NCBI GenBank assembly: GCA_017433295.1
Contig: JAFRHL010000028.1
Location: 1 to 32,572 of the forward strand
Length of the DNA stretch: 32,572 bases
Direction of reading: 5' to 3'
Origin: Eubacterium sp.
GTDB taxonomy: Bacteria > Bacillota > Clostridia > Lachnospirales > Lachnospiraceae
The position numbers were made by a program, and so were the translations under genes. Below the pieces are notes generated by a model that saw only the letters and a list, made by a program, of their open reading frames with translations, was not told where the DNA came from and made no database searches. Below, one piece after another: positions 471 to 13,425 of this stretch (positions are counted from its first letter, which is position 1; each line of letters opens with the position of its first letter).

Positions 471-3400
471 TCACTTCATTAGTATGTTCAGCGTTCCCAG
501 TATTTCCGGAATATCATAGGGCTTGGCAAGGTGTCCGTTCATCCCTGCCTCCAAAGCAGCCCTCCGGTCTTCCTCGAAGGCGTTGGCTGTAACCGCGACA
601 ATGGGAATGCCTGCCTTCTCTTTGTCCTCTAAGGCACGGATCTGTCTGGCTGCTTCATATCCATCCATCTTCGGCATCTGAATGTCCATAAGGATAATGT
701 CGTAATATCCTGCGGGTGCGGCTTTTACCATTGCAACCGCCTCGGTGCCGTCATTGGCAATCTCCACCTGGAGATTGGCTTCGGTCAGGATCGTTTCCGC
801 AATCATCTGGTTTACATCATTGTCTTCAGCCAGCAGCACACGCTTCCCGGAGAAGTCCGGCAGCGTTTCCGGCTCATATTGTTCAGCCTGCAGCTCCTGG
901 GCAGACATAAACGGCTGTGTGAGTACATTCCTCAGTTCTGACATGAACAGCGGCTTTGAGCAGAAAGCGGTCACTCCTGCCTCTATTGCTTCTTCCTCAA
1001 TATCTGCCCAGTCATAAGCCGTCAGGATGATGATGGGAACGTTGCTCCCGATCACCCTGCGAATCCTTCGTACGGTTTCGATGCCGTTCTGATCCGGCAT
1101 CAGCCAGTCGATAATGTAGACCTGGAACTCATCTGCCTGATTCAGCGCTTCCTTTGCTCGGACTACCGCTTCTTTCCCGTAGTTTGTCCAGTCAGGCCGC
1201 ATTCCGATTTCCCGGAGCATGGAGCAGATGGAGAGGCAGGTGTTCGTATCGTCATCCGCTACCAGTGCTCGAACGCCTTTCAGTTCCGGTACCGGTTCAA
1301 ATTTAGTACAAACGTCGCTGATCTTGCATGGAATGATTACAATAAACTCGCTGCCCTTCCCCTCTTCGGAAATGACATCAATCGTTCCTCCCATCATATC
1401 GACGATATTTTTAGTGATCGCCATGCCGAGACCGGTTCCCTGAATACCGCTTACTGTACTGGTTCTCTCGCGGGTAAAGGCATCGAAGATGGTTTTCTGG
1501 AATTCACTGCTCATGCCGATGCCGTTATCCCTGATACGGAATTCAAAGCTGGTGAGCGCGGGGGATGGCAAGGGCCTTTCTATCACGCGAAAACTGATCG
1601 TGCCGCCGGCCGGCGTAAACTTGACAGCGTTGGTCAGAATGTTCAGCAGTACCTGATTGAGCCGCAGGCTGTCAGTAATAATATCTTCGTGGATCACATC
1701 CTGTGTGTCGATAAACAGCTCCATCTGCTTGGAGGAGATGTTGGCGTGGATGATCGTCCGCAGATCGTGGATTACATCCGGCAAATGGACGCTTGTTTCC
1801 TCAATCGTCATCTTTCCGCTTTCAATGCGGCTCATGTCCAGCACATCGTTGATCAGCGAAAGGAGGTGCTGGCTGGATACGGATATCTTGCCCAGGTAAT
1901 CCTGGACCTGCTCTTTGTTATCGATATGAGAAGCGGCAAGCGCCGTAAACCCCACGATGGCATTCATTGGCGTGCGGATGTCGTGGGACATACTGTTCAG
2001 GAAAGCCGTTTTTGCGTTATTGGCATGCTCTGCCGCAATGAGCGCATCCGAAAGTGCCTGCTGACTCTCGGCCAGTTCCAGGTTCTTTTCCTCAAGTACC
2101 AGTCTGGATGCTTCTTTTTCACGAATCTCCTGTTTTGACCGTCTGCTGTCGCGAACCAGCAGGAAAATGATGATCGAGGCGATGGCAAGAATGCCTGAGA
2201 CGAACAATGCCATATGATCCATCAATATATCGGCAAAACCGTAAGTAAACAGCCCGTCATTATAGCGGTGAAGAAGATTCTGCGTGTATTCCACACCGAG
2301 AATGCTGATGCCGCGGTTCAGCAGCCTCAACAGACCCTCGTTTCCAATTTTCACGCCGAAGCACCGCCCGTCGATATAACTGATCTGCCGGTGGGACAGG
2401 GCATTGTATTTCCGGTTCCTTAAGATGTCATTGGCCCGCAGACCGTTCATGGTCACGCAGCCCGCCTTGCCGGAAAGCACTGCGGTAAGACATTCATCAA
2501 TGGACTGATAGAAAGTGATCTTCGCATCGGGATAGTTGGTCCGCACGAAATAATACTGCATACGGTTGTTTTCGTTAATGGCGAAATGCTTCGTTGTCTT
2601 TTCGGTGAATTCGCCCCGATAGACCAGTTCTGCGGGTGACGCTGACACGGTGTTGGACTGGTAGATACCGTTCTTTTCGGAAAAGTAAAACCCGCCGCCG
2701 ACCGGAAAAGCAGCGTCGATTTCACCGGAGTTGACGGCCGCGATCATGTCGTCATAGCTCCTGTAGCCGCTGCAGGTGACGTCAATGTCCGATCTTCCGA
2801 TGGCGTTCAGAATGGCGGGAACGATCTCCTTTACCGCGCCATCCACATTGCCCTGACTGTCCGTGTCACTGAATGGCAGATAGTTTTCAAGATACCCAAC
2901 GTGAAGCGTCGTATGCCCGTCCAGCCACTCAAGTTCGGCCTTTGAAAAAGCGCGGGCTGTGACGCTGAGGGAATAATACTTTGCTCTCAGTGTGCTCAGA
3001 TAGCCCGGCTCTGATGTTGCCAGCAACGTCTGCGCGGTGTTCAGCTCCGCCAGCAGATCCGGCCGGTTTTTATTGACGCACAGATAATAGTCCGATGCAC
3101 CGAAGATGGAGATCACTTCCGCGTGCTCCCTCCCGCGTGTGCCATCACTCTCCGCGGCAAGGACATCCACGGTATGGGTATCAAAAGCGTTGAACAGCTG
3201 CGTGTTATCCTGATAGGTGACAACCTCAGCTGTAATGCTGCGGTCATGCAGATATTGATTCAGAACGCTCACCATCGCACTGTTTAAAACGCCGATGGTA
3301 CACCCGTTCAGGCTGGCGGGATCCGCCGTAATGTGATCGTCTTTTTCGTGTTTGACAAGGTAATAGGACTCGCTGCCCATGATTGCGTCGGGATACCCGA

Positions 3401-3806
3401 TCAGTCCGGCCCGTTCCTCTCTCCATGCAAGACCTGCGAGCAGATCGATCTCGCCGTCCAGAAGCTTTTGATACAGCTCATTGAAGCCACCGTAAACATA
3501 GGTGTATCTCCAGCCGGTATATTCAGAGAGCTTCTGATAATACTCGTAGGCATAGCCGGTTCTGACCGCACTCTCCTCAGCTCCCTCCTGAAACACCTCG
3601 TTTTCATAGTATCCGACACGAATGGTATCGTGCCCGTTATCCGCATAAACAGCTGCAGGCCGGACGGCAAATATCATAATAGCCGCGCAGGCAAGGAAAA
3701 CAAGTCTGCGGAAAGACATGTGCATACCCCGCAGGGCGATAAAGCCACTTATATGCTTTGTGGTACCAGGTAGCCCGGCATGTGGGTTTATTGAAAAAAA
3801 TCTCAT
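471..3806 (-). CDS. Hybrid sensor histidine kinase with two SBP_bac_3-type sensor domains
   Basis: BvgS/EvgS-like membrane kinase of 1111 residues. A signal peptide ends near VYA (residues 52-54). Two tandem extracytoplasmic solute-binding domains of the amino-acid type follow (about 60-290 and 298-515), then one membrane helix (about 533-552), a coiled coil, HisKA with phospho-acceptor H608 (SMSHDIRTPMNA), and HATPase (NILTNAVKF, DNGIGM, GTGLGMAI). Two receivers end the protein: D900 with K951, and D1041 with its own TA and KP residues. No Hpt domain is visible, so a phosphorelay would need an external partner. I chose the ATG at 3806 because GGAGGG sits 5-6 bases upstream. An ATG at 3719 would give a more compact signal peptide and cannot be excluded. 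The gene follows the permease fusion by 16 bases, clearly in one operon. The bound ligand is unknown; amino acids are inferred from the domain family. Confidence 0.93.
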   Translation of the reverse strand: MRFFSINPHAGLPGTTKHISGFIALRGMHMSFRRLVFLACAAIMIFAVRPAAVYADNGHDTIRVGYYENEVFQEGAEESAVRTGYAYEYYQKLSEYTGWRYTYVYGGFNELYQKLLDGEIDLLAGLAWREERAGLIGYPDAIMGSESYYLVKHEKDDHITADPASLNGCTIGVLNSAMVSVLNQYLHDRSITAEVVTYQDNTQLFNAFDTHTVDVLAAESDGTRGREHAEVISIFGASDYYLCVNKNRPDLLAELNTAQTLLATSEPGYLSTLRAKYYSLSVTARAFSKAELEWLDGHTTLHVGYLENYLPFSDTDSQGNVDGAVKEIVPAILNAIGRSDIDVTCSGYRSYDDMIAAVNSGEIDAAFPVGGGFYFSEKNGIYQSNTVSASPAELVYRGEFTEKTTKHFAINENNRMQYYFVRTNYPDAKITFYQSIDECLTAVLSGKAGCVTMNGLRANDILRNRKYNALSHRQISYIDGRCFGVKIGNEGLLRLLNRGISILGVEYTQNLLHRYNDGLFTYGFADILMDHMALFVSGILAIASIIIFLLVRDSRRSKQEIREKEASRLVLEEKNLELAESQQALSDALIAAEHANNAKTAFLNSMSHDIRTPMNAIVGFTALAASHIDNKEQVQDYLGKISVSSQHLLSLINDVLDMSRIESGKMTIEETSVHLPDVIHDLRTIIHANISSKQMELFIDTQDVIHEDIITDSLRLNQVLLNILTNAVKFTPAGGTISFRVIERPLPSPALTSFEFRIRDNGIGMSSEFQKTIFDAFTRERTSTVSGIQGTGLGMAITKNIVDMMGGTIDVISEEGKGSEFIVIIPCKISDVCTKFEPVPELKGVRALVADDDTNTCLSICSMLREIGMRPDWTNYGKEAVVRAKEALNQADEFQVYIIDWLMPDQNGIETVRRIRRVIGSNVPIIILTAYDWADIEEEAIEAGVTAFCSKPLFMSELRNVLTQPFMSAQELQAEQYEPETLPDFSGKRVLLAEDNDVNQMIAETILTEANLQVEIANDGTEAVAMVKAAPAGYYDIILMDIQMPKMDGYEAARQIRALEDKEKAGIPIVAVTANAFEEDRRAALEAGMNGHLAKPYDIPEILGTLNILMK

Positions 3807-3822
3807 CACGCCCTCCATCATT

Positions 3823-6800
3823 TTATGATTCCGGCCGCACACCGATTACGATATGGTGGTCATCACTGCTTCTTGTCTTTATTGCCTGTACTGAGTACTG
3901 CTTCCATTCGCCGTCACGCAGGCATCTGAAGGACAGGGCTTCCGTTTCTTCCCGGCCGATCCACCGCATCAGGCTGGTCTTGCTGAGTGACTCCCTGATT
4001 CTATCTGAGTCTTCTTCACACACATCGGAAAGCAGTCTCTCCCACACGTCCCCGAAGAAATCCGCGCCGCCGGGTCTGATCTGGAGATCTCCGCCCTTCC
4101 CGGTATAGAACTCCAGGAAATAATTCGAAACCACATCCACGTAGAAAATGCTTTCGAAGTCGCTGGTAAGCGCTTTGGAAATGCTCATATAGGTTTTCTT
4201 GACCGAAGGCGTCATTTCCACACACACCTCTCCCCGTTCAATCAGGAAGGGGTCAAAGGCTTCCGGAGGCACGGGTTTTGAGAAGTAATAGCCCTGCACG
4301 AAATCGCAGCCCATCGCCTTCAATACCAGGTACTGCTCTTCGGTTTCCACGCCTTCTGCCACCACGGGCACATGGAGGTAATCCGCGATGTCGATGATCA
4401 GCTCGATCATCCGCACGTCCCGTGTCTCGCCGAAGGCGCTGCGCACGAAGCTCATATCCAGCTTCAGCACATCGATGGGCAAATGCGACAGCATCCCCAG
4501 AGAGGAATAGCCTGTACCGAAGTCGTCCATCTCGATACGGAAGCCCATGCCCATGCCGCGCAATTCACGCGCCGTGGAAATAACCTGCTCGGCATCCTCG
4601 GTATAGGCCGACTCCGTGATTTCCAGCATCAGATCCTCCGGGTTCAGGCCATAGGTGTTCAAAATTTCGCCGAATATACCTTTCAGGTTTGGTGTCAGCA
4701 TATCAATGCGGGAAACGTTCACGGACACCGGAACGGAATAGCCGAAGCGATCCTTCCAATCCCTGATGCGGGCGGCGGCTTCGTTCCAGACGAACTTGTC
4801 AAGCTCCAGAATCAGGCCGTTATCCTCCAGCAGCGGGATAAAGACACCGGGGCTGATCATGCCCATTTCAGGGTGGTCCCAGCGTACCAGAGCCTCTGCG
4901 CTGGCGAGGACAGGCTTGTCCGGGCGAATATCGAACTTGGGCTGGAAGAAAACTCTGAACCTGTTGTTATCCAGCGATGGCCTGAAGTCTTCCAGCAATC
5001 GCTCGCGATAGAGCTCCGCATTATGCATATCGGTATCGTAAATACCGACGCCATTACTGTATCCGGTCCTGACGGTATTTGCGGCAATCTTGGCATAGTC
5101 GAAGCGCCGTTCGATTTCCAGAGTCTTGTCTACATTGGAGTAAACGCCCATGCGCAAACGTACCCTGTTTGCCGAAGCCTCTTCGTCCACAAGCCCTTCT
5201 GAGGCTTTCGACAGGAGCACCTCGTAATCCTCACGATGGGGGCAGTAGATCAGGAAAGTGTCGCCGACGCGGCGGCAGCCGACGCCGCCCACTTCCCGGG
5301 AGATCCTTCGAATGCGCTCGCCGATCCGGGCGAGTACGCTGTCACCGTACTGCTTGCCATAACGCTCGTTGATCATGTGGAAGCGGTTTACATCTATCAC
5401 GATGGCATCCATCGGCATTTCCGTATATTGCCGGTCATACATCCTGACAAAATTGAGAAAGTAGTTCATGTTATATAGCTTTGTGAGCGGGTCACGTTCC
5501 GTGGATTCGATGATATTCCGTTTTTCAGACAGCTCAATACAGCGGTGGACTCTGGCCTGAACGATTTCCCAGGAAGGATAGGGTTTCGGGATAAAATCCA
5601 TGGCGCCGATTTTCAGGCATTTCACCTCGGCGCTTTGATCGGCTGTCAGTACGATGACGGGGATATCCGCAAGTTCACGCTCTTCTTTCATTACCTTCAG
5701 CACTTCCATGCCGTTCATGTGGGGCATCTGTAAATCCAGAAGAACGATTGCGATTTCATCCTTGTGTTCTTTGATCTGTTCCAGCGCTTCAACACCGTCA
5801 GAAGCATACAGCAGATCCCAGTCTCCCTTGAGCATATTGCCCAGCATCATCAGGTTGACGTATTCATCCTCCACGATGAGGATATACCGTTTGTCATTCA
5901 GGATCTCCTGGCCGTTCAAGCCCGGAACCGCAGACCCGGACGCTTCCTCTGCGTCATCCCTTGTGACCGCTCCGAGGCCCTTCAGCAGCTGCTTTTCCTT
6001 ATACATCAAAGCGTCAGCGCGCTCAAACACGCTGTGGAAGCTCTGATCCTCGCCCTGCCTGTATTCCGAAAGGCCGCCCGAGATAACAACTCCGCCGCCG
6101 TCGATGTGCTCCACGGACCGGTCGTGCAGCGCCAGCACAAGCTCCTTGCGGATAACATAGTCGCGCCCCGTCAGTATGACTACAAATTCATCCCCGCCGA
6201 TCCGAAATACGGGGCTGTGCTGGAAGATGTCACAAATCATTCCGAAGGCCTGACAGATATACTCGTCGCCGGCTTTGTGCCCGAGGGTATCGTTGATTTT
6301 TTTCAGGCCGTTTACATCGCAGACCACAACGGCAAAATCCTTCGCACAGCTTTCATCGATGGACTTGTCGAATTCTTTCTCGCTTACCAGATAGGCATGC
6401 TTGCTCTTTGCGCCGGTAAGCGGATCCCTGAATGCGGTCTCCTTTGCTTTATCCCGCTCCTCTACCGCTCTTTTCTCCCATCGCTCCATTGATATATGGT
6501 TAATAAGCATTGCGGAGAGTGCAAGAATGAATAACACGGTAATGAGCAGGGTGTTTATGGTATCAACCTTGTGGATATGGTCGATCTGGCCCTGAATAAA
6601 ATCTGCCTCATCTAAGCTCTGTACAGTCTCATCCGCCTGACCGTTGTAGTATTCCTGAATAGTATAGATTGATTCATTTGTGGATTTCTCATCCACACGT
6701 CCCGACCAGATTATAGCCATGAAGACCACCAGGGACAGAAGCACGATCCAGACGATGATTGCTTTACCAAACCGCCGGGCATGGTCTTTCTTAATGATCC

Positions 6801-8187
6801 ACCGGAAATAAAAGAAGCCCAGAACGGTCCACACCATGAAGAGGATATAAGTCTCTGTCTCCAGCAGGGCATCCGAGAACAGGTTGGGAAAGAGCAGATA
6901 GATTCCGAAGACCAGCATGATTCCGAAGCCGAGGAAGCCGGTAATGGTCTGCCTGCGGTCTTTCATCTTTTTTGCCAGCTTGAATGTTGTCGCAGACACA
7001 AAGCCATACAGCATGGTCGCGCCCAGTGTCGTTACATCCACGATCCATCCAATCGCTGTGCGGCCGACAAAAGCCATCGGGATACTGAGGGCGGCAACCA
7101 GGAGCATTGCGTTTGCGGGAATCTGCTTGTCATTAAGCCGGGCAAAGGGACTCGGAAGAATATCATCCCGGGCGGCGGCATAGAACAATCTGCTTAGAGC
7201 CCGAAGATTAGCGATAAGGCTTGTCAGAACCAGTGAAAGCAGCGAAGCCATCAGCACGGCCACACCGACATTCCCCATATAATGGTGTGCAGCGTAAAAC
7301 GCGGGCAAACCGGCGATACCGGAGAAGCTTCCGCAATTTTGGATATAATCCAGCCAGGAGCTGCAGCCTTCTGGATAAGCGGTAATACTCAGCAGTGTGA
7401 CAAAAATGTATAAAGCCGTCGAGGTCAGCACAGAAAGGATCAGTATGCGTTGCAGTTTATCCCGTTTGAAATTGAATTCTTCCACAGAATGCGTAATGCC
7501 TTCAAATCCGATAAAGGCCCAGGGCGATATGAAGGCAATCCGAAGTGTCCGTGACAAGGCGTTCCCGTCAGGAATGAATGCCGGACTCAGGCTGCCCCTG
7601 TGTCCCCAAATCGCAGCCCCAAAGCAGAGCGTAATACCGATCACAAATATGCCGACCATTACTGTCATCGCTTTTGCGGCAATCATCTTGCTGCGCATAC
7701 AAAGAACAGTTATGGCGCTGACCGCGACAATGGTGAGCAGCACTTCACCGAAATAGACCTCATATTCAAATAAGATAAACATGTATCCGAACCGGCAAAT
7801 GTCTCCCACGAAATATCTGGCAAAAAGTGGAAGACTGGTCGCATTTGCCCAGAACATGGAGATATATGTCAGGCTGAGGAACCAGAACACAAGGAAGGCG
7901 CGGTCGTAGCCGAAAACCTCCTTTGTATAGGTATAAGCACCACCGGCGCGGGGATAATGATTCGCCATGTAGAAAAAGTTTTCGCACATCAGCAGCATCA
8001 GCACCGTGCCGATCAGAAGGCCAAAGACTGTGCCGGCCGGTCCTGCCTGTGCCAGGTATGTGTTGCTGGTGACGACCAGCGACCCCCATCCGACGGCAGC
8101 ACCCACAGAAAGCGCCCATGCCGCCGCAGGTGAGAGATAAGGCTGCAGCCCTATCTGCGGCTTATTATCCGACGCCTGATTTTTCAT
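3823..8187 (-). CDS. Amino-acid permease fused to GGDEF-REC-GGDEF*-EAL c-di-GMP module
   Basis: A 1454-residue fusion in one uninterrupted frame. Residues 15-465 form a 12-helix APC-superfamily amino-acid permease, with a TM1 GWGSLVV segment and RAGGAYTYTKEVFG after TM2. Two extra helices (about 473-495 and 544-563) bracket a short extracytoplasmic loop. Then come a canonical GGDEF (664-668, no RxxD inhibitory site), a receiver (D818, K868), a second GGDEF degenerated to VGDTF (974-978), and an EAL domain with all main motifs (EAL 1098-1100, EITES, DDFGTGYSS, KLD, AEGVE, QGYYFSKP). The last 120 residues look like the PAS-type region common in Lachnospiraceae GGDEF proteins. The protein should both make and degrade c-di-GMP at the membrane, possibly gated by substrate transport. 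AGGAGGG precedes the ATG. The kinase gene downstream may phosphorylate the receiver; that is inference. Confidence 0.93.
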   Translation of the reverse strand: MKNQASDNKPQIGLQPYLSPAAAWALSVGAAVGWGSLVVTSNTYLAQAGPAGTVFGLLIGTVLMLLMCENFFYMANHYPRAGGAYTYTKEVFGYDRAFLVFWFLSLTYISMFWANATSLPLFARYFVGDICRFGYMFILFEYEVYFGEVLLTIVAVSAITVLCMRSKMIAAKAMTVMVGIFVIGITLCFGAAIWGHRGSLSPAFIPDGNALSRTLRIAFISPWAFIGFEGITHSVEEFNFKRDKLQRILILSVLTSTALYIFVTLLSITAYPEGCSSWLDYIQNCGSFSGIAGLPAFYAAHHYMGNVGVAVLMASLLSLVLTSLIANLRALSRLFYAAARDDILPSPFARLNDKQIPANAMLLVAALSIPMAFVGRTAIGWIVDVTTLGATMLYGFVSATTFKLAKKMKDRRQTITGFLGFGIMLVFGIYLLFPNLFSDALLETETYILFMVWTVLGFFYFRWIIKKDHARRFGKAIIVWIVLLSLVVFMAIIWSGRVDEKSTNESIYTIQEYYNGQADETVQSLDEADFIQGQIDHIHKVDTINTLLITVLFILALSAMLINHISMERWEKRAVEERDKAKETAFRDPLTGAKSKHAYLVSEKEFDKSIDESCAKDFAVVVCDVNGLKKINDTLGHKAGDEYICQAFGMICDIFQHSPVFRIGGDEFVVILTGRDYVIRKELVLALHDRSVEHIDGGGVVISGGLSEYRQGEDQSFHSVFERADALMYKEKQLLKGLGAVTRDDAEEASGSAVPGLNGQEILNDKRYILIVEDEYVNLMMLGNMLKGDWDLLYASDGVEALEQIKEHKDEIAIVLLDLQMPHMNGMEVLKVMKEERELADIPVIVLTADQSAEVKCLKIGAMDFIPKPYPSWEIVQARVHRCIELSEKRNIIESTERDPLTKLYNMNYFLNFVRMYDRQYTEMPMDAIVIDVNRFHMINERYGKQYGDSVLARIGERIRRISREVGGVGCRRVGDTFLIYCPHREDYEVLLSKASEGLVDEEASANRVRLRMGVYSNVDKTLEIERRFDYAKIAANTVRTGYSNGVGIYDTDMHNAELYRERLLEDFRPSLDNNRFRVFFQPKFDIRPDKPVLASAEALVRWDHPEMGMISPGVFIPLLEDNGLILELDKFVWNEAAARIRDWKDRFGYSVPVSVNVSRIDMLTPNLKGIFGEILNTYGLNPEDLMLEITESAYTEDAEQVISTARELRGMGMGFRIEMDDFGTGYSSLGMLSHLPIDVLKLDMSFVRSAFGETRDVRMIELIIDIADYLHVPVVAEGVETEEQYLVLKAMGCDFVQGYYFSKPVPPEAFDPFLIERGEVCVEMTPSVKKTYMSISKALTSDFESIFYVDVVSNYFLEFYTGKGGDLQIRPGGADFFGDVWERLLSDVCEEDSDRIRESLSKTSLMRWIGREETEALSFRCLRDGEWKQYSVQAIKTRSSDDHHIVIGVRPES

Positions 8188-8315
8188 GACTTATCCCTCC
8201 TCATTTTCTTCAATTCAGTATTATCCCGGAGCATTGAAACACCCCCTCCGAAAAGCAGCATATGACTTGATTTGATTTTCCGACAATGTCCCTGTATTTG
8301 TATAACTTCTGACCT

Positions 8316-8327
8316 CATGTTAACATG
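8316..8327. promoter_or_regulatory. 12-bp palindrome in the leader of the permease fusion
   Basis: CATGTTAACATG is a perfect palindrome, flanked by CTGAC and GTCAG, which are also complementary. It lies between the putative promoter and the start codon at 8187. It could be an operator or form a hairpin in the leader RNA; the regulator is unknown. Confidence 0.45.
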
Positions 8328-8363
8328 GTCAGGGTAATAAATCAATCCGTTTTAAATAAAGCA

Positions 8364-8390
8364 AATATATCATGGTATTTTCTATGTCAA
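8364..8390 (-). promoter_or_regulatory. Putative promoter of the permease-kinase operon
   Basis: On the minus strand a perfect -35 box TTGACA (8385-8390) is followed after 15 bases by TATATT (8364-8369). The spacer is shorter than the usual 17, so the assignment is moderate. It would give a leader of about 170 bases before the start at 8187. Confidence 0.5.
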
Positions 8391-8422
8391 AGAGAGATTA
8401 ATTCCCCTATCACTGCATCTTT

Positions 8423-8800
8423 TTACCCTGCTTTTGGCAGGAACTGCCTTAACTGTTCAACACGATCTTTTCCTTCATGATCATGAAATCCCTCTTCAGC
8501 CAGCCTGTGAATCTCCCTGCAGGTCTTGTGAAGGATGATTTCCGTCAGGACATGGATATACCCGTGATTTTCTGCTGCATGGATAAAGCTGTATGGCATC
8601 ACAATCCCTGTTTCGGGAAGGTTCAGACGCATCAAAGCCTCCGCTGTATCGAAGCGTCCGGTCTTGAGATTATAAACCGGCTGGCAATAGGCCAGTACAC
8701 GAGGATCGTCCATATCGGCCCTGCTGTAAATGTCGGCTAATTCCCGAAGAATATACTCAGTCCGGCTGATCTCTTTCACGGATTCGCCTGGAAAATGCAA
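8423..8800 (-). pseudogene. EAL-domain gene fragment
   Basis: About 125 codons that match the beginning of an EAL phosphodiesterase domain: a linker (ISRTEYILRELADIYSRADM), then VLAYCQPVYNLKTG, TAEALMRLNLP and the PYSFIHAAENHGYI segment. The catalytic EAL glutamate is present, but everything after the first quarter of the domain (EITES, DDFG, AEGVE) is missing and the last 15 or so residues look unrelated. No ATG or ribosome binding site is evident; the frame opens with TTG. This is most likely the remnant of a GGDEF-EAL gene. The nearby intact fusion has a complete EAL domain, so this piece is redundant debris. Confidence 0.75.
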
Positions 8801-8916
8801 GTGCTGAGAGTGGCTGGCACTAATGCAGGGCTGTTTTTATATTTTGGGGGATGGAAAAAGGTGTTGATCTATGATATATTTCTATAAATATTTATTTACA
8901 AGGGAGGTTCCTGCCC

Positions 8917-9388
8917 ATGATGACATATTACACATTGATTTCTCCATACATACATCATTGATGTCGAGGTGGTCATACCGTTCCAGCCCAGCTGCTTCTT
9001 CATCGGTATCATGTTCGCTTATACGCTTCTGATCACAACGGCTTATAAGGAAACGGAGGAGCAGAACGTAAGACTGACGGAGCGCGCGCTGGCAGCAGAG
9101 CGAATCGCGGAATTGTCCGAGTCTGTTTCTGCGCTGCTGTCCAATATGCCCGCCATGACTTTTTCAAAGGATGTAAAGACGGGCAGATACCTGGCCTACG
9201 GTTATACGGATCTTTTCTATGTCGATCTCAAAAACAGGGACTTCATCAAATACAAGCCTTCTGACGAGGATGGCAGTCTTACCGAATTGCGGCATGGCGA
9301 GGTATGAGGATGACGATTGTGTAGCGGCAGTATTGAACGTGCAGATCATCTGATGTACGAGAATAAGAATGCGCTGAAACCTGACTAA
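8917..9388 (+). pseudogene. Decayed sensor-GGDEF (diguanylate cyclase) gene
   Basis: Pieces of one gene lie in order. An ATG at 8917 with GGGAGG upstream starts a 14-codon frame that soon stops. From 8969 a longer frame carries a membrane helix (FFIGIMFAYTLLITTAY), a coiled coil and a PAS-like start (SALLSNMPAMTFSKDVKTGRYL), jumping to YTDLFYVDLKNRDFIKYKPS and ending at 9307. After two in-frame stops the same frame continues as ERADHLMYENKNALKPD (9332-9388), the usual C-terminal end of a GGDEF domain. The GGDEF core is deleted. It is oriented away from the EAL fragment, so at least two c-di-GMP genes have decayed here. Confidence 0.75.
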
Positions 9389-9548
9389 AGGATCATCAGA
9401 ATCTTGCTCTCTGCGTCGCTTAAGCTGCAATCTGCATGTATCAGGGTTTTTACGGAGATATCTATGTTAGAGACGTGAGGGATCTCATGCCGGAAGCAGG
9501 CATGAAGAGTACAGTTTTAAAGGTGTGTGGAATAAAGGAGTATCGGGT

Positions 9549-10220
9549 ATGGAAATCAAAAGCATTGAAAGTCTCGATTTTGGCTCATTGACATCTGAAG
9601 AAGCCGGTAATCTGGGGCTTAATGTCATATTTGTAGAGGATGACGGTACGTACAACTGGATTTACTGTCTGAAAATGTTTCAAAATCGTTCCATGTTAAA
9701 ATTTGTAATGAAGATCATTGCCATTATATACACGATAATAATAGTATTTATGCTTGTACTGGCAGGAGGGTCCGATGATATTCTCCTGATCCTTGGCATT
9801 TTGGGCCTGGTCTTTGTCGCTGTGATAGTGATCATCCTGTTTTCATTCTGGCTGGTAGATAAGATTTATAAAGGAAACTATATGCTCATTTATGAGATGA
9901 ATACCCGGGGGATCACATTTTCCCAGACCACAGATCAGGCACAGATGACCCGTGCGATAGCAGCAGCTTCAGCGGCGGCAAACGCGGCGGGCGGTAATGT
10001 CGGGGGAGTGGTTTCGGGAACCGGTCTGGCCATGAGACCCAATTCCTGGCAGGCAGAGTTTTCAAAAGTAAGATCTGTCAGGGGGAAGAGAAGTGACAAT
10101 CTGATATGGGTGAATACATTTCTGCAATATCTGATGGTTTACGTTCCGGATGATGCCTATGATTTTGTCTGGACCTACATTACCAGCCGATGTGTAAATG
10201 CAAAAATTACACCCTGCTAA
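9549..10220 (+). CDS. Hypothetical membrane protein with two central helices
   Basis: A 223-residue protein I do not recognise. The ATG at 9549 has AAAGGAG eight bases upstream; an in-frame start 24 bases earlier lacks a comparable site. A soluble N-terminal part of about 45 residues is followed by two adjacent hydrophobic helices (about 50-75 and 80-105), then a soluble C-terminal part. That part contains a small-residue stretch (AIAAASAAANAAGGNVGGVV) and the segment NLIWVNTFLQYLMVYVP. Such an arrangement resembles small bacterial PH-like or YcxB-like membrane proteins, but I cannot assign it. It precedes the LytTR/GHKL locus by about 200 bases and is separated from it by a promoter, so a functional link is unproven. 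Confidence 0.7.
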   Translation: MEIKSIESLDFGSLTSEEAGNLGLNVIFVEDDGTYNWIYCLKMFQNRSMLKFVMKIIAIIYTIIIVFMLVLAGGSDDILLILGILGLVFVAVIVIILFSFWLVDKIYKGNYMLIYEMNTRGITFSQTTDQAQMTRAIAAASAAANAAGGNVGGVVSGTGLAMRPNSWQAEFSKVRSVRGKRSDNLIWVNTFLQYLMVYVPDDAYDFVWTYITSRCVNAKITPC

Positions 10221-10291
10221 AAACAATCGGGATTGCTGAGGCGATTTGGAATGAAAGTATTTTCAGGCAGGAAAAGAATATTTTTAAGTGC

Positions 10292-10346
10292 TTGCATTTT
10301 AAGTCCATTAATAGTATAATCAGTTTTAAAACAATTATAGTATAAT
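10292..10346 (+). promoter_or_regulatory. Promoter of the LytTR/GHKL locus with duplicated -10 element
   Basis: TTGCAT (10292-10297), a 17-base spacer and TATAAT (10315-10320) make a near-consensus promoter. The ten bases ATAGTATAAT recur exactly at 10311-10320 and 10337-10346, giving a second possible -10 box 26 bases downstream, although its -35 region is weak. The leader to the start at 10425 is roughly 100 bases. Confidence 0.6.
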
Positions 10347-10424
10347 ATTAAAAATCACAATACAACAGAGATTTAATATTACAGGTTCTCTGGTGTTACC
10401 ATTGCTGGGGGATTGAGGGATTAT

Positions 10425-11135
10425 ATGGTACTTGCACTGGTAGATGATGACTGTACATGGTTGGAGAAGGCGGCAGGCATTCTTCAGGAGTGTGCGGACA
10501 GATTATCGATTACATTGGAGCTCCTGTGCTTTCAAAGCGGACGGGAGCTCCTTTCCTACGCTGAAAAACCGGTTAATGCTGCTTTTATAGATATTGAGCT
10601 GGAAGAGGAAAACGGGATAAAGCTCGCCTCGACCATAAACAGCCAGTGGCCTGAATGTCAGATTATCTATTGTACGAACTATGTACACTACGCCATAGAT
10701 GTCTATGGTACGAAGCATTCGTATTTTTTGACCAAGCCCAGGCTGGAGGAGAGTGTTGATGCCATTGTCAGGAAGCTGTATCAGATATGGTGTATGGAGA
10801 ATGAGCTGCTTTCCTTTCATGTGATAAAACTAGGTAAAACAGCCTTCAGGGTAAAGGATATCCTCTACTTTGAGCGTAAAACCAGGCAGACGACTTTAGT
10901 AACTACCCGGGGAAAGTATAATTTATCCGAGAAGATCACAGAGATCACAGATAGTCTGCCCGAGGGTGAATTTACCAGGTGCCATGCCTGTTTTACGGTG
11001 AACCTCTCCTGTATTGCCAGAAAGAACGGGAATTCCTATGAACTGGTCACCGGTGAATCCATTCCCATCAGTAAGAGTTTTTCAGATATGACCAGACGGG
11101 ATTACCTGAGCTGGTGCGCGGAGCAGATCGAGTGA
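10425..11135 (+). CDS. LytTR-family response regulator (AgrA/VirR type)
   Basis: A 236-residue cytoplasmic regulator. Residues 1-120 are a receiver: acidic DDD near the start (7-9), phospho-acceptor D56 in AAFIDIELEEENG, and conserved K104 in YFLTKP. Residues 130-236 are a LytTR DNA-binding domain (FRVKDILYFERKTRQTTLVTTRGKY, GEFTRCHACFTVNLSCIA). Proteins of this type bind paired direct repeats at promoters, often of peptide, virulence or cell-envelope genes. I chose the ATG at 10425, with GAGGG just upstream, over an in-frame TTG at 10413. A strong hairpin follows immediately, before the kinase gene. The target promoters cannot be read from this window; autoregulation through the upstream repeat is possible. 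Confidence 0.92.
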   Translation: MVLALVDDDCTWLEKAAGILQECADRLSITLELLCFQSGRELLSYAEKPVNAAFIDIELEEENGIKLASTINSQWPECQIIYCTNYVHYAIDVYGTKHSYFLTKPRLEESVDAIVRKLYQIWCMENELLSFHVIKLGKTAFRVKDILYFERKTRQTTLVTTRGKYNLSEKITEITDSLPEGEFTRCHACFTVNLSCIARKNGNSYELVTGESIPISKSFSDMTRRDYLSWCAEQIE

Positions 11136-11136
11136 G

Positions 11137-11180
11137 CTTTTATCAGCCGGGAGATTGTATCCCCGGCTGATAAAAGTTTT
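11137..11180 (+). terminator. Strong hairpin between regulator and kinase genes
   Basis: A perfect 15-bp stem (11137-11151 with 11162-11176, arms CTTTTATCAGCCGGG and its complement) has a 10-base loop and is followed by TTTT. It starts two bases after the regulator's stop codon. It should act as a partial intrinsic terminator or a transcript-stabilising hairpin that sets the kinase level below the regulator level. Confidence 0.7.
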
Positions 11181-11205
11181 CCGAGTCTTAAAAAAAGGGA
11201 GTGTC

Positions 11206-11988
11206 ATGACTGACTTTATAGGCCTGTTTTTGATTACTATCATAGCGGTAGTGCTGGTATTTTATATTAAGAGTCTCCGAAGGATGGAGGAGAGGAACCT
11301 GCGGCTGCAGGAGAATATCAATCTGGCCAGGCATTTTTTTGATGAAGTTCAGGAACATGCGGACAGTATCCGCCATTACCGTCATGACCTGAATAAGCAT
11401 ATGCGCATCCTGGAGGAGTTTCTTGAAAAAGGGAAGAAGTTTGACCACAGTGAGGAGTACCGGGAGCTGAGCTGCTCCTATCAGCGGATGCAAAAGGATG
11501 CGGCGGCCATGTATCAGAACGCTTACTGCGATAATAATATTATTAATGCCATCTGTGAGATCAACCAGAGGGAATGCCAAAAAAGGGACATTATTTTTGA
11601 AACGGATATTTCAGGTGACGAAAATGCCTGGAAAAAGCTGGACTGGATCAGCGAGTATCATCTGACAGGCATCCTTATGAATCTTCTGGATAATGCCAGG
11701 GAAGCCCAGCTGCGCCTTGAGCCCGGGGAAAGAAAGTTCATTTTTCTTTTGGTTCATCTGACGCCGGCTTCAGACATGACCCCGGAACGCTTGGATATAA
11801 CGGTAAGCAATACTGTACCCGGGGGAGTGAAACCGGACTTTCATACCGGGAAAGCAGATAAGGACCGGCATGGGCTGGGTCTTGATATCGCAGAAAAGTA
11901 TTGCGGGATCTATCATGGATGTTTGTCCTTTCAGCATGACCCGGAACGACACTGTCTTACTGTGGCTGCCACCCTCATTGGCAGCTGA
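11206..11988 (+). CDS. Short GHKL sensor histidine kinase, single membrane helix
   Basis: A 260-residue kinase of the AgrC/CitA-type GHKL group. It has one N-terminal helix (about 4-21), a coiled coil, and a phospho-acceptor motif RHYRHDLNKHM with H60. The ATP-binding part has an intact N box (ILMNLLDNAREA) and G box (RHGLGLDIAEKY). It has no extracytoplasmic sensor domain, so its input must come from another protein. The ATG at 11206 has AAGGGAG just upstream; an earlier in-frame TTG lies inside the hairpin and is rejected. It follows the response regulator, its probable substrate, and precedes the polytopic pseudokinase, its probable partner. A hairpin follows the stop codon. Confidence 0.9.
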   Translation: MTDFIGLFLITIIAVVLVFYIKSLRRMEERNLRLQENINLARHFFDEVQEHADSIRHYRHDLNKHMRILEEFLEKGKKFDHSEEYRELSCSYQRMQKDAAAMYQNAYCDNNIINAICEINQRECQKRDIIFETDISGDENAWKKLDWISEYHLTGILMNLLDNAREAQLRLEPGERKFIFLLVHLTPASDMTPERLDITVSNTVPGGVKPDFHTGKADKDRHGLGLDIAEKYCGIYHGCLSFQHDPERHCLTVAATLIGS

Positions 11989-11990
11989 CG

Positions 11991-12008
11991 CCGGCTTTTA
12001 GAAGCCGG
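11991..12008 (+). terminator. Small hairpin after the short kinase gene
   Basis: CCGGCTT (11991-11997) pairs with AAGCCGG (12002-12008) across a four-base loop, followed by GAGATTTTATT. The stem is short and the U tract poor, so it is probably a weak terminator or processing site within the operon. Confidence 0.4.
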
Positions 12009-12051
12009 GGAGATTTTATTGATAGATTTGCATCAGGGGGATCCTGCATAG

Positions 12052-13425
12052 ATGACAGCTTTTCTTTTAGATAACATCAGATCCTTATATCTAACCTTCT
12101 TTGGCTCCCTGATGATGTTTTTTGTTTTGACTAAGACCGCAGGCTGCAGGTATTCAAAGAAGATCACCTGTTTTGTCTGGATGCTGGTCTGGCTTTTTCG
12201 CTATTCTTTTTATTCTCTTTATATGGCAAATTATCTGGCGGGATTGTACCAGGGTCAGGAATGGTTTTCAAACCTGGTGCTTTTTTTGAATGCGGCAAAT
12301 TTGTGGATGTGTATGATCCTGATAGCTTTTCTTTTTAAGGGACGGCTACGGAAAAACATGGTCACGGTGGCAGTATTTGAGATGACCTATGCGGTCTTAA
12401 CAATGATTCCCCATTTACTGTATTCATTTTTTGTCCATGGCAGGGCTACGGCACCATTAATGAATGATATCAATATAATGGATATTATTATGCCGGTTTA
12501 TACGGGGGTCATTCTATGGGCCTTTTTATATTATGGCGATTCATATTTGAAAAGATATGCCGGGTGGAACAGCAGCCACCCAGTCATGGTTAATTTATTC
12601 CTTTTTTTGTATCTTACAACAGCTTTGATCGGCAACTTCGACTATGTACAAACCAGAGGGAATATGGGTTTTGTCCTGTATGTTGTTTTGATAATGATGG
12701 TTTTTGTCTACTTTATTTACGATTATCTCTATACCGAAAGGGAGAAGGAGAAAAAACGCTATCTTGAGCTTGTTTACAGGGAAAAGGCTTTAAAGAACCA
12801 CTATGAAAGAGTCAGGGAGCAGGCAGACAAGATCAGGCTTTATAACCGGGAAATCCGGGATAATATGGATGCCCTGCTAAAAAAGATATCTGACTCTGAA
12901 GGGAATAATGGGGAGGGGTCCGGTGAGTCATCAGAGGAAACCGCTGCTTATGAAGACAATATTAATTCGATGGTATCAGGCTATTTTAAGATTCTCAAAG
13001 AGCATTATCAGGAGCTGTCTTTCCGCTCCTGGTGTGATGACCCATTGATGGACCATCTATTAAGGACTTATGATGGTTATTTCAAAGATAAAGGGATAGA
13101 AGCCGTATTCTGTTTTCAGGATTATCGGACGCCTCTGGGAGTATCCGGACAGGAAGTGGAACAGATACTCATGTGGATGCTGGACTGGGCAGTGGCTCAC
13201 CTGAATAAACAGAGCCGGGCAGACCGTACCGGACTGGTCCTGCAGGGAGGCGTTGTGAGGGAGGAACTTATTCTTTCCTGCCATCTTACAGGCGCCGATG
13301 GAAAAATATCAAAGAACCGGAGCATCAGGAGGCTGCTTAAGAAGGTGAACGGAGATATAAGTATTATTTCCGATGAAAATGTCAACAAAGTCCTGATCGG
13401 GATCCCCATAGGAACTGAAGAATAA
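12052..13425 (+). CDS. Polytopic AgrC-like GHKL pseudokinase
   Basis: A 457-residue protein with about seven membrane helices (residues 8-228), a coiled coil (229-265) and a C-terminal region laid out like an AgrC kinase but stripped of its catalytic residues. At the dimerisation helix the family motif RHDIKNHLDAL is replaced by NREIRDNMDAL (265-275), so the phospho-acceptor histidine is R266. At the ATP-binding N box, NLLDNA is replaced by WMLDWA (375-380), losing both asparagines, and no GLGL motif is present. It cannot plausibly autophosphorylate. Lying directly after a short active kinase that lacks a sensor, it is best read as a signal-sensing partner that controls that kinase by heterodimerisation; this is inference. 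AGGGGG lies about 11 bases before the ATG. The membrane part does not identify the signal. Confidence 0.85.
   Translation: MTAFLLDNIRSLYLTFFGSLMMFFVLTKTAGCRYSKKITCFVWMLVWLFRYSFYSLYMANYLAGLYQGQEWFSNLVLFLNAANLWMCMILIAFLFKGRLRKNMVTVAVFEMTYAVLTMIPHLLYSFFVHGRATAPLMNDINIMDIIMPVYTGVILWAFLYYGDSYLKRYAGWNSSHPVMVNLFLFLYLTTALIGNFDYVQTRGNMGFVLYVVLIMMVFVYFIYDYLYTEREKEKKRYLELVYREKALKNHYERVREQADKIRLYNREIRDNMDALLKKISDSEGNNGEGSGESSEETAAYEDNINSMVSGYFKILKEHYQELSFRSWCDDPLMDHLLRTYDGYFKDKGIEAVFCFQDYRTPLGVSGQEVEQILMWMLDWAVAHLNKQSRADRTGLVLQGGVVREELILSCHLTGADGKISKNRSIRRLLKKVNGDISIISDENVNKVLIGIPIGTEE

Follow-up and report, generated by a model that had tools for sequence, protein, structure and literature searches.

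The 32,572-nt contig JAFRHL010000028.1 of Eubacterium sp. (assembly GCA_017433295.1, Lachnospiraceae), hereafter the window, carries on its minus strand a gene in which a permease of the APC type is continued, in the same chain, by domains of cyclic di-GMP (c-di-GMP) synthesis and breakdown. An earlier note on this DNA had described the gene as one unbroken frame coding for a permease, an intact GGDEF domain, a receiver, a degenerate second GGDEF site, an intact EAL domain and a PAS-like tail, and most of this description is borne out. The open reading frame (ORF) listing gives for 3823–8187 a single gene of 1454 codons with an ATG start and a GGAGGG just 5′ of it (Table 1). Pfam places above cut-off, in the 1454 residues, AA_permease_2 (20–437, E = 3.7e-34), Response_reg (769–877, 7.5e-21), EAL (1066–1305, 2.6e-60) and two stretches of GGDEF, the better at 586–733 (3.1e-36); D818, GGDEF 664–668, the degenerate VGDTF 974–978 and EAL 1098–1100 are all present as claimed. 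In every domain, divergence from the loci L113 and L114 is greatest at third codon positions (L116 stops before the tail), and the window gene encodes a real single protein. The reading preferred here, with a probability of roughly 0.6, is that this protein may be a membrane sensor in which the APC-type permease acts as the receptor and drives c-di-GMP turnover, with the receiver as a second input.

Table 1. Features of the permease gene and its surroundings in the window
Feature	Residues and motifs	Position	Strand	Evidence
Whole gene, permease-TM13/14-GGDEF-REC-GGDEF(degenerate)-EAL-tail	1454 codons + stop	3823..8187	-	ORF and Pfam
Ribosome-binding-site-like GGAGGG	ahead of ATG 8187	8195..8200	-	sequence reading
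APC permease core, TM1–TM12	20–464; broken TM1 (GWG 33–35) and TM6 (PWAFIGFE 222–229)	6796..8130	-	Pfam, hydropathy, alignment, model
TM13, outside helical hairpin, TM14 and continuous helix into cyclase	473–585	6433..6771	-	hydropathy, model
GGDEF1, without RxxD I-site	586–733; intact GGDEF 664–668	5989..6432	-	Pfam, alignment
Receiver domain	769–877; acceptor D818	5557..5883	-	Pfam, alignment
Degenerate GGDEF2	~890–1055; VGDTF 974–978	5023..5520	-	second Pfam GGDEF stretch, alignment
EAL domain	1066–1305; EAL and DDFGTG intact	4273..4992	-	Pfam, alignment
C-terminal tail, PAS-like by weak evidence	1321–1454	3826..4227	-	Pfam, PDB profile, homologue
Hybrid kinase (SBP_bac_3, HisKA, HATPase, REC, REC), downstream		471..3806 (frame 471–3842)	-	Pfam; start ATG 3806 inferred

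TM, transmembrane helix; REC, receiver domain.

What the signalling half has kept and lost was read across 40 proteins of the same complete domain order, called full proteins below. The first GGDEF site reads GGDEF in 40 of 40, and the RxxD inhibitory site was found in none of these rows at columns 648–663. The second site never reads GG[DE]EF (GADTF in 18, varied in the others), so that GGDEF1 must account for synthesis and EAL for breakdown. The EAL motif is present in all 40, accompanied by DDFGTG in 38 and DDFGSG in one, L115 being cut off by the contig end. In the receiver, D818, D774 and K868 are found in every full protein, position 773 is E in 36 and D in four, and position 848 is T in 39 and S in one. 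From these motifs, a full protein would hold a single cyclase and a single phosphodiesterase, besides one receiver that can be phosphorylated and a GGDEF domain conserved in a non-catalytic state. The tail, present in 31 of the 40, was called PAS-like in the earlier note. In favour of this, a PAS_3 match below threshold (3.7e-4) overlaps the homologous tail in L190; against it, the window tail itself gives a single Pfam row at E 0.23 and a best PDB row no better than 0.43. An hhalign comparison of the tail profile with one PAS-matching segment found nothing.

The permease half scores far above the Pfam cut-offs (AA_permease_2, 118.8 bits against 27; AA_permease, 65.3 against 24.6), and its predicted structure, by model and fold comparison, has the APC/LeuT fold with TM1 and TM6 broken. 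AdiC, ApcT, GkApcT and y+LAT1 share this fold and the broken helices, but they align only to residues ~10–477, the output domains lying outside the match. Family-mean hydropathy yields 14 segments (22 printed peaks merged by eye), including TM13 at ~473–498 and TM14 at ~543–565, in keeping with the 12 permease helices and two extra ones of the earlier note; its outside loop of about 45 residues survives as an outside segment between TM13 and TM14, but is modelled as a helical hairpin, and TM14 is modelled as one 59-residue helix reaching the cyclase. Two hydropathy peaks mark TM13 and TM14 in 127 of 133 fused rows (kinase 37/41, full 43/43, GGDEF 40/42, PAS-GGDEF 2/2, HD-GYP 5/5) versus none of 18 unfused rows, in which a mean of only 15 residues is left after the permease. 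The TM13–TM14 unit goes with the signalling forms of the permease.

Motifs in TM1, TM3, TM6 and TM10 are near-invariant among 131 fused rows, and the fused and unfused permeases differ at particular residues: W113 in 124/131 versus 0/27, H233 in 102/131 versus Q in 27/27, and E229 in 129/131 versus D in 25/27. These motifs bear on the idea that the permease is a membrane anchor which binds nothing and only positions the enzymes, sensing being left to the outside hairpin or the receiver. In its modelled layout the hairpin does resemble a small outside sensor, and the variability of its loop (conservation 0.36) would suit a sensory part; a mere anchor, however, would not need the near-invariant motifs, and the permease diverges mainly at third codon positions, which makes this explanation quite unlikely.

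The survey of domain order that the earlier note had proposed finds the full order in at least 39 further frames on other contigs, three of them running up to a contig end, among the best 80 of at least 574 confirmed relatives in a scan of named genomes. Elsewhere the same permease and hairpin are joined to GGDEF alone, PAS-GGDEF, HD-GYP or a histidine kinase; in one fused form (L204), HATPase_c appears only below the Pfam cut-off. Tree rows from the best 80 loci comprise 39 full proteins, 36 permease-GGDEF, four HD-GYP and three kinase forms and one unlabelled row. By title, most of their hosts are metagenome bins of Lachnospiraceae, Oscillospiraceae and Erysipelotrichaceae, a good many of them from rumen or gut; further rows are from Coriobacteriia (11), Treponema (two), Chloroflexota (one) and Alphaproteobacteria (one), and the G+C of the Coriobacteriia loci (0.545–0.614) is in line with this class. 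The permease is matched at 1e-30 in 13 of 61 genomes (the own genome and relatives). In wider samples, at most three candidates were scored per genome, so that the counts are lower bounds; fused forms were counted from frames and domain calls, with the domains of most checked in the order and phylum samples. In the bacterial family, at least 32 of 397 genomes match at 1e-50, at least 27 with a fused form and five with only unfused or cut ones, and the window's full order occurs in at least three (G000, the own genome, G122 and G240). At 1e-60, at least 45 of 392 genomes match in the order sample (at least 11 with fused forms) and at least 14 of 398 in the phylum sample (at least four). A plasmid search gave three matches at ~25% identity and <80% coverage, two of them annotated as APC permeases.

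That a chimeric contig or a missed frameshift fused two genes is barely credible, and is already refuted for the family: the own genome is a draft of 56 contigs, and metagenome bins make up most of the named relatives, but the same order recurs on other contigs, and records not titled as metagenome-assembled genomes or as uncultured hold a permease-GGDEF form (Lachnospiraceae bacterium AD3010, L191) and a permease-HD-GYP form (Ruminococcus sp. YE71, L166). Because of the 39 further frames and the third-position-dominated divergence from L113 and L114, the order is neither chance nor one bad join, and the window protein belongs to a real, recurrent family of permease-type sensors. Among its kinase forms, L218 and L219 contain permease-kinase genes in tandem without receivers, and in L218 a CheB-methylesterase-like gene adjoins them.

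In a tree of 161 permease domains (three without label), one branch parts 131 fused signalling permeases from 27 unfused or iron-containing alcohol dehydrogenase (Fe-ADH)-fused ones with an SH-aLRT support of 100; the split is found again under a mixture model with 63 of the 161 rows (support 100/100, 200/200 bootstraps). Permease stretches shorter than 380 residues, two identical rows and nine loci taken as duplicates were left out of the input, although one of the nine, the kinase form L195, is no duplicate. Set A1 covered 41 of 42 stretches (without the half gene L009), set A2 60 of 73 relative stretches. At least 18 changes are required on this tree for all seven labels and at least 14 for the five output classes of the fused rows; full proteins are scattered over it (eight changes). 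With the unfused side taken as outgroup, a root that is assumed, kinase outputs branch first and c-di-GMP outputs are nested within. The permease–Fe-ADH fusions fall on the unfused side. They are carrier–enzyme fusions of 738–906 amino acids (L211–L216, same family and order) that form a separate APC-permease clade with a C-terminal Fe-ADH; PF00465 and PF25137 are found in the three that were scanned, and aminotransferase-like frames were seen nearby by eye.

Such a modular family is as expected of a sensory input. Control might also run inside-out, with the permease a working transporter that is regulated from its tail, by c-di-GMP turnover or by phosphorylation of the receiver, instead of sensing for the enzymes. 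The fold and the TM1/TM6 motifs are retained, and KimA, also among the fold matches, was solved with c-di-AMP bound, so that a second messenger can bind a carrier of APC fold. However, histidine kinases, which are outputs, are also found on this permease; the layout, with a transmembrane helix running into the output domain, is that of a sensor; and regulation would not call for both a synthesis and a breakdown enzyme. Inside-out control is unlikely.

The partnership of the permease with a REC-GGDEF-EAL unit is also met in separate genes. Such a gene lies within 400 nt of the permease-GGDEF gene in 11 of 42 rows (the 42 including the two identical rows removed from the tree) and of the kinase form in 8 of 41 (seven independent), but in none of the full (0/43), unfused (0/18), HD-GYP (0/5) or PAS-GGDEF (0/2) rows, all counted without any hiding of ORFs. 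Among ORFs two or more places off, 3 of 471 are REC-GGDEF-EAL genes, a count in which, as in that of solute-binding protein (SBP) neighbours given below, some ORFs are hidden behind longer overlapping ones (L119 was missed). In L117, a REC-GGDEF-EAL gene, a permease-kinase gene (2643–5966), a full protein (6007–10344) and a permease-GGDEF gene (10382–12742) stand in a row over 518–12742. Permease distances correlate with those of the C-terminal module in full proteins (r 0.77, reached by 0 of 2000 permutations) and in split kinase pairs (r 0.67, 8 of 2000); the correlation is weak in split GGDEF pairs (r 0.44, 50 of 2000). The nearest neighbour of a split module is another split module in 18 of 18 cases, and likewise for the module beside L119; the modules of full proteins occupy one side of a single branch (100/100; 42 rows including the broken L118), with the split ones outside. 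On a quick tree built earlier, which included ten unlinked modules, the full-protein group needed two changes, a number not lowered by relabelling L118 and L119 as full. Since the modules of full proteins are one lineage while the proteins themselves are scattered on the permease tree, one joining followed by losses of the C-terminal half would fit best. Literal fission between full protein and split pair was rejected, the split modules forming a lineage other than that of full-protein modules. The covalent pairing and the operon pairing seem to have arisen independently, which speaks for a functional partnership; the operon form is that of L119, the nearest kin of the window's own subclade.

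Downstream of the permease gene, the likely start of the hybrid kinase (ATG 3806) follows a GGAGGG and lies 16 nt past the permease-gene stop. The terminator scan gave no minus-strand terminator between the two genes, which probably form one operon, and the Pfam scan gave no Hpt row for the frame 471–3842; this SBP hybrid kinase is a possible partner of the receiver. On the other side, LytTR-type regulator-like and sensor-kinase-like frames were seen by eye at 10413–13425. The own genome (G000) holds two more permease copies, a kinase form of 1407 codons on contig C13 and, on C5, a second full-protein copy in two frames (L009, 3365–7680; 58% identical over the larger part), whose state reflects either disruption or an assembly error. 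It further contains 83 places that match the window protein, most of them through its signalling domains. Local c-di-GMP pools are often proposed for genomes with many such domains, and the enzymes might be tied to the permease only so that a nearby effector sees their product, free of allosteric coupling; since outputs have been swapped repeatedly, also to kinases and HD-GYP, such scaffolding is very unlikely.

Ligand gating is the most likely reading, as judged from anatomy, conservation and modularity. An amino acid or amine would bind the permease, and may also be carried; the change between inward and outward states would shift the TM13–TM14 hairpin, and the continuous TM14 helix would relay this shift to a GGDEF1 dimer, altering c-di-GMP synthesis. 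The REC-degenerate GGDEF-EAL half would supply the corresponding phosphodiesterase and be adjusted through D818, phosphorylated by a separate kinase that may be the SBP hybrid kinase of the next gene downstream. Nutrient binding may in this way directly set the c-di-GMP level of the cell. Several points weigh against ligand gating. Sampling was seeded with fused proteins and the best-scoring loci were retained; an SBP-bearing gene adjoins just 4 of 41 full proteins, so that the kinase neighbour is not constant; neither a PilZ protein nor a c-di-GMP-I riboswitch was matched in the own genome (the c-di-GMP-II riboswitch search matched no control); and the split REC-GGDEF-EAL genes, being of another lineage, exclude simple gene fission. 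Furthermore, the TM5 lysine of GkApcT (K191), which serves in proton coupling there, is replaced by F181 in the window protein, with no Lys at this position in 131 fused or 27 unfused rows; as the unfused relatives lack it too, this difference decides nothing, and a loss of transport argued from the missing Lys was dropped.

Comparison with known systems, cited here from partial texts, qualifies the earlier claim of an undescribed system. The titles and abstracts searched in the open-licence literature include no APC permease with a fused kinase or c-di-GMP domain; however, fusions of other transporters to signalling domains are known. One close parallel is AmtE of Azoarcus olearius, an ammonium transporter (Amt) joined to GGDEF/EAL and called a likely transceptor, which likewise unites transporter and c-di-GMP domains in one chain (PMC8467165); it is an Amt and not an APC protein, and a receiver or an extra hairpin goes unmentioned in the excerpt available. 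In Ks-Amt5, transport is lost and a kinase is gated, so that a carrier was made a sensor for its fused output, as proposed here, but with an Amt and a kinase and without c-di-GMP (PMC5764959). The SLC5-STAC kinases CbrA and CrbS/MxtR also use a carrier as N-terminal signalling module, and CbrA, described as a rare transceptor, transports histidine (PMC13022988, a preprint; PMC7918813, a review of SSS-domain kinases; PMC5715377); they combine an SSS/SLC5 carrier, a STAC linker and a kinase, in contrast to the APC permease, TM13–TM14 hairpin and c-di-GMP output of the window protein. In its Pfam scan, neither an ammonium transporter domain nor SSF gives a row at E<=0.01, and a histidine kinase core is absent, although present in relatives. 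The GGDEF-EAL proteins DibA and DosP match the degenerate GGDEF and EAL half (NCBIfam rows far below cut-off), but have other inputs and no permease. A study of the S-component fold, as excerpted, names NRAMP as the only transporter with a fusion in its set (PMC11109136).

More broadly, there is about an even chance that a single event made APC permeases a general receptor module whose outputs (kinases, cyclase, HD-GYP, cyclase plus phosphodiesterase) can be exchanged behind the TM13–TM14 hairpin, and that gut anaerobes thereby possess amino-acid transceptors that directly write and erase c-di-GMP. If so, the window protein would be the first case of a diguanylate cyclase gated by a LeuT-fold permease, and the range of outputs on this one input (kinase, cyclase, HD-GYP) would be a natural chimera set for studying the readout of a carrier's conformational cycle. 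Nutrient carriers would then rank among the standard receptors of rumen and gut anaerobes, and not as the rare case that CbrA was called in the available text (PMC13022988), and amino-acid supply would be linked to c-di-GMP by a direct route open to testing.

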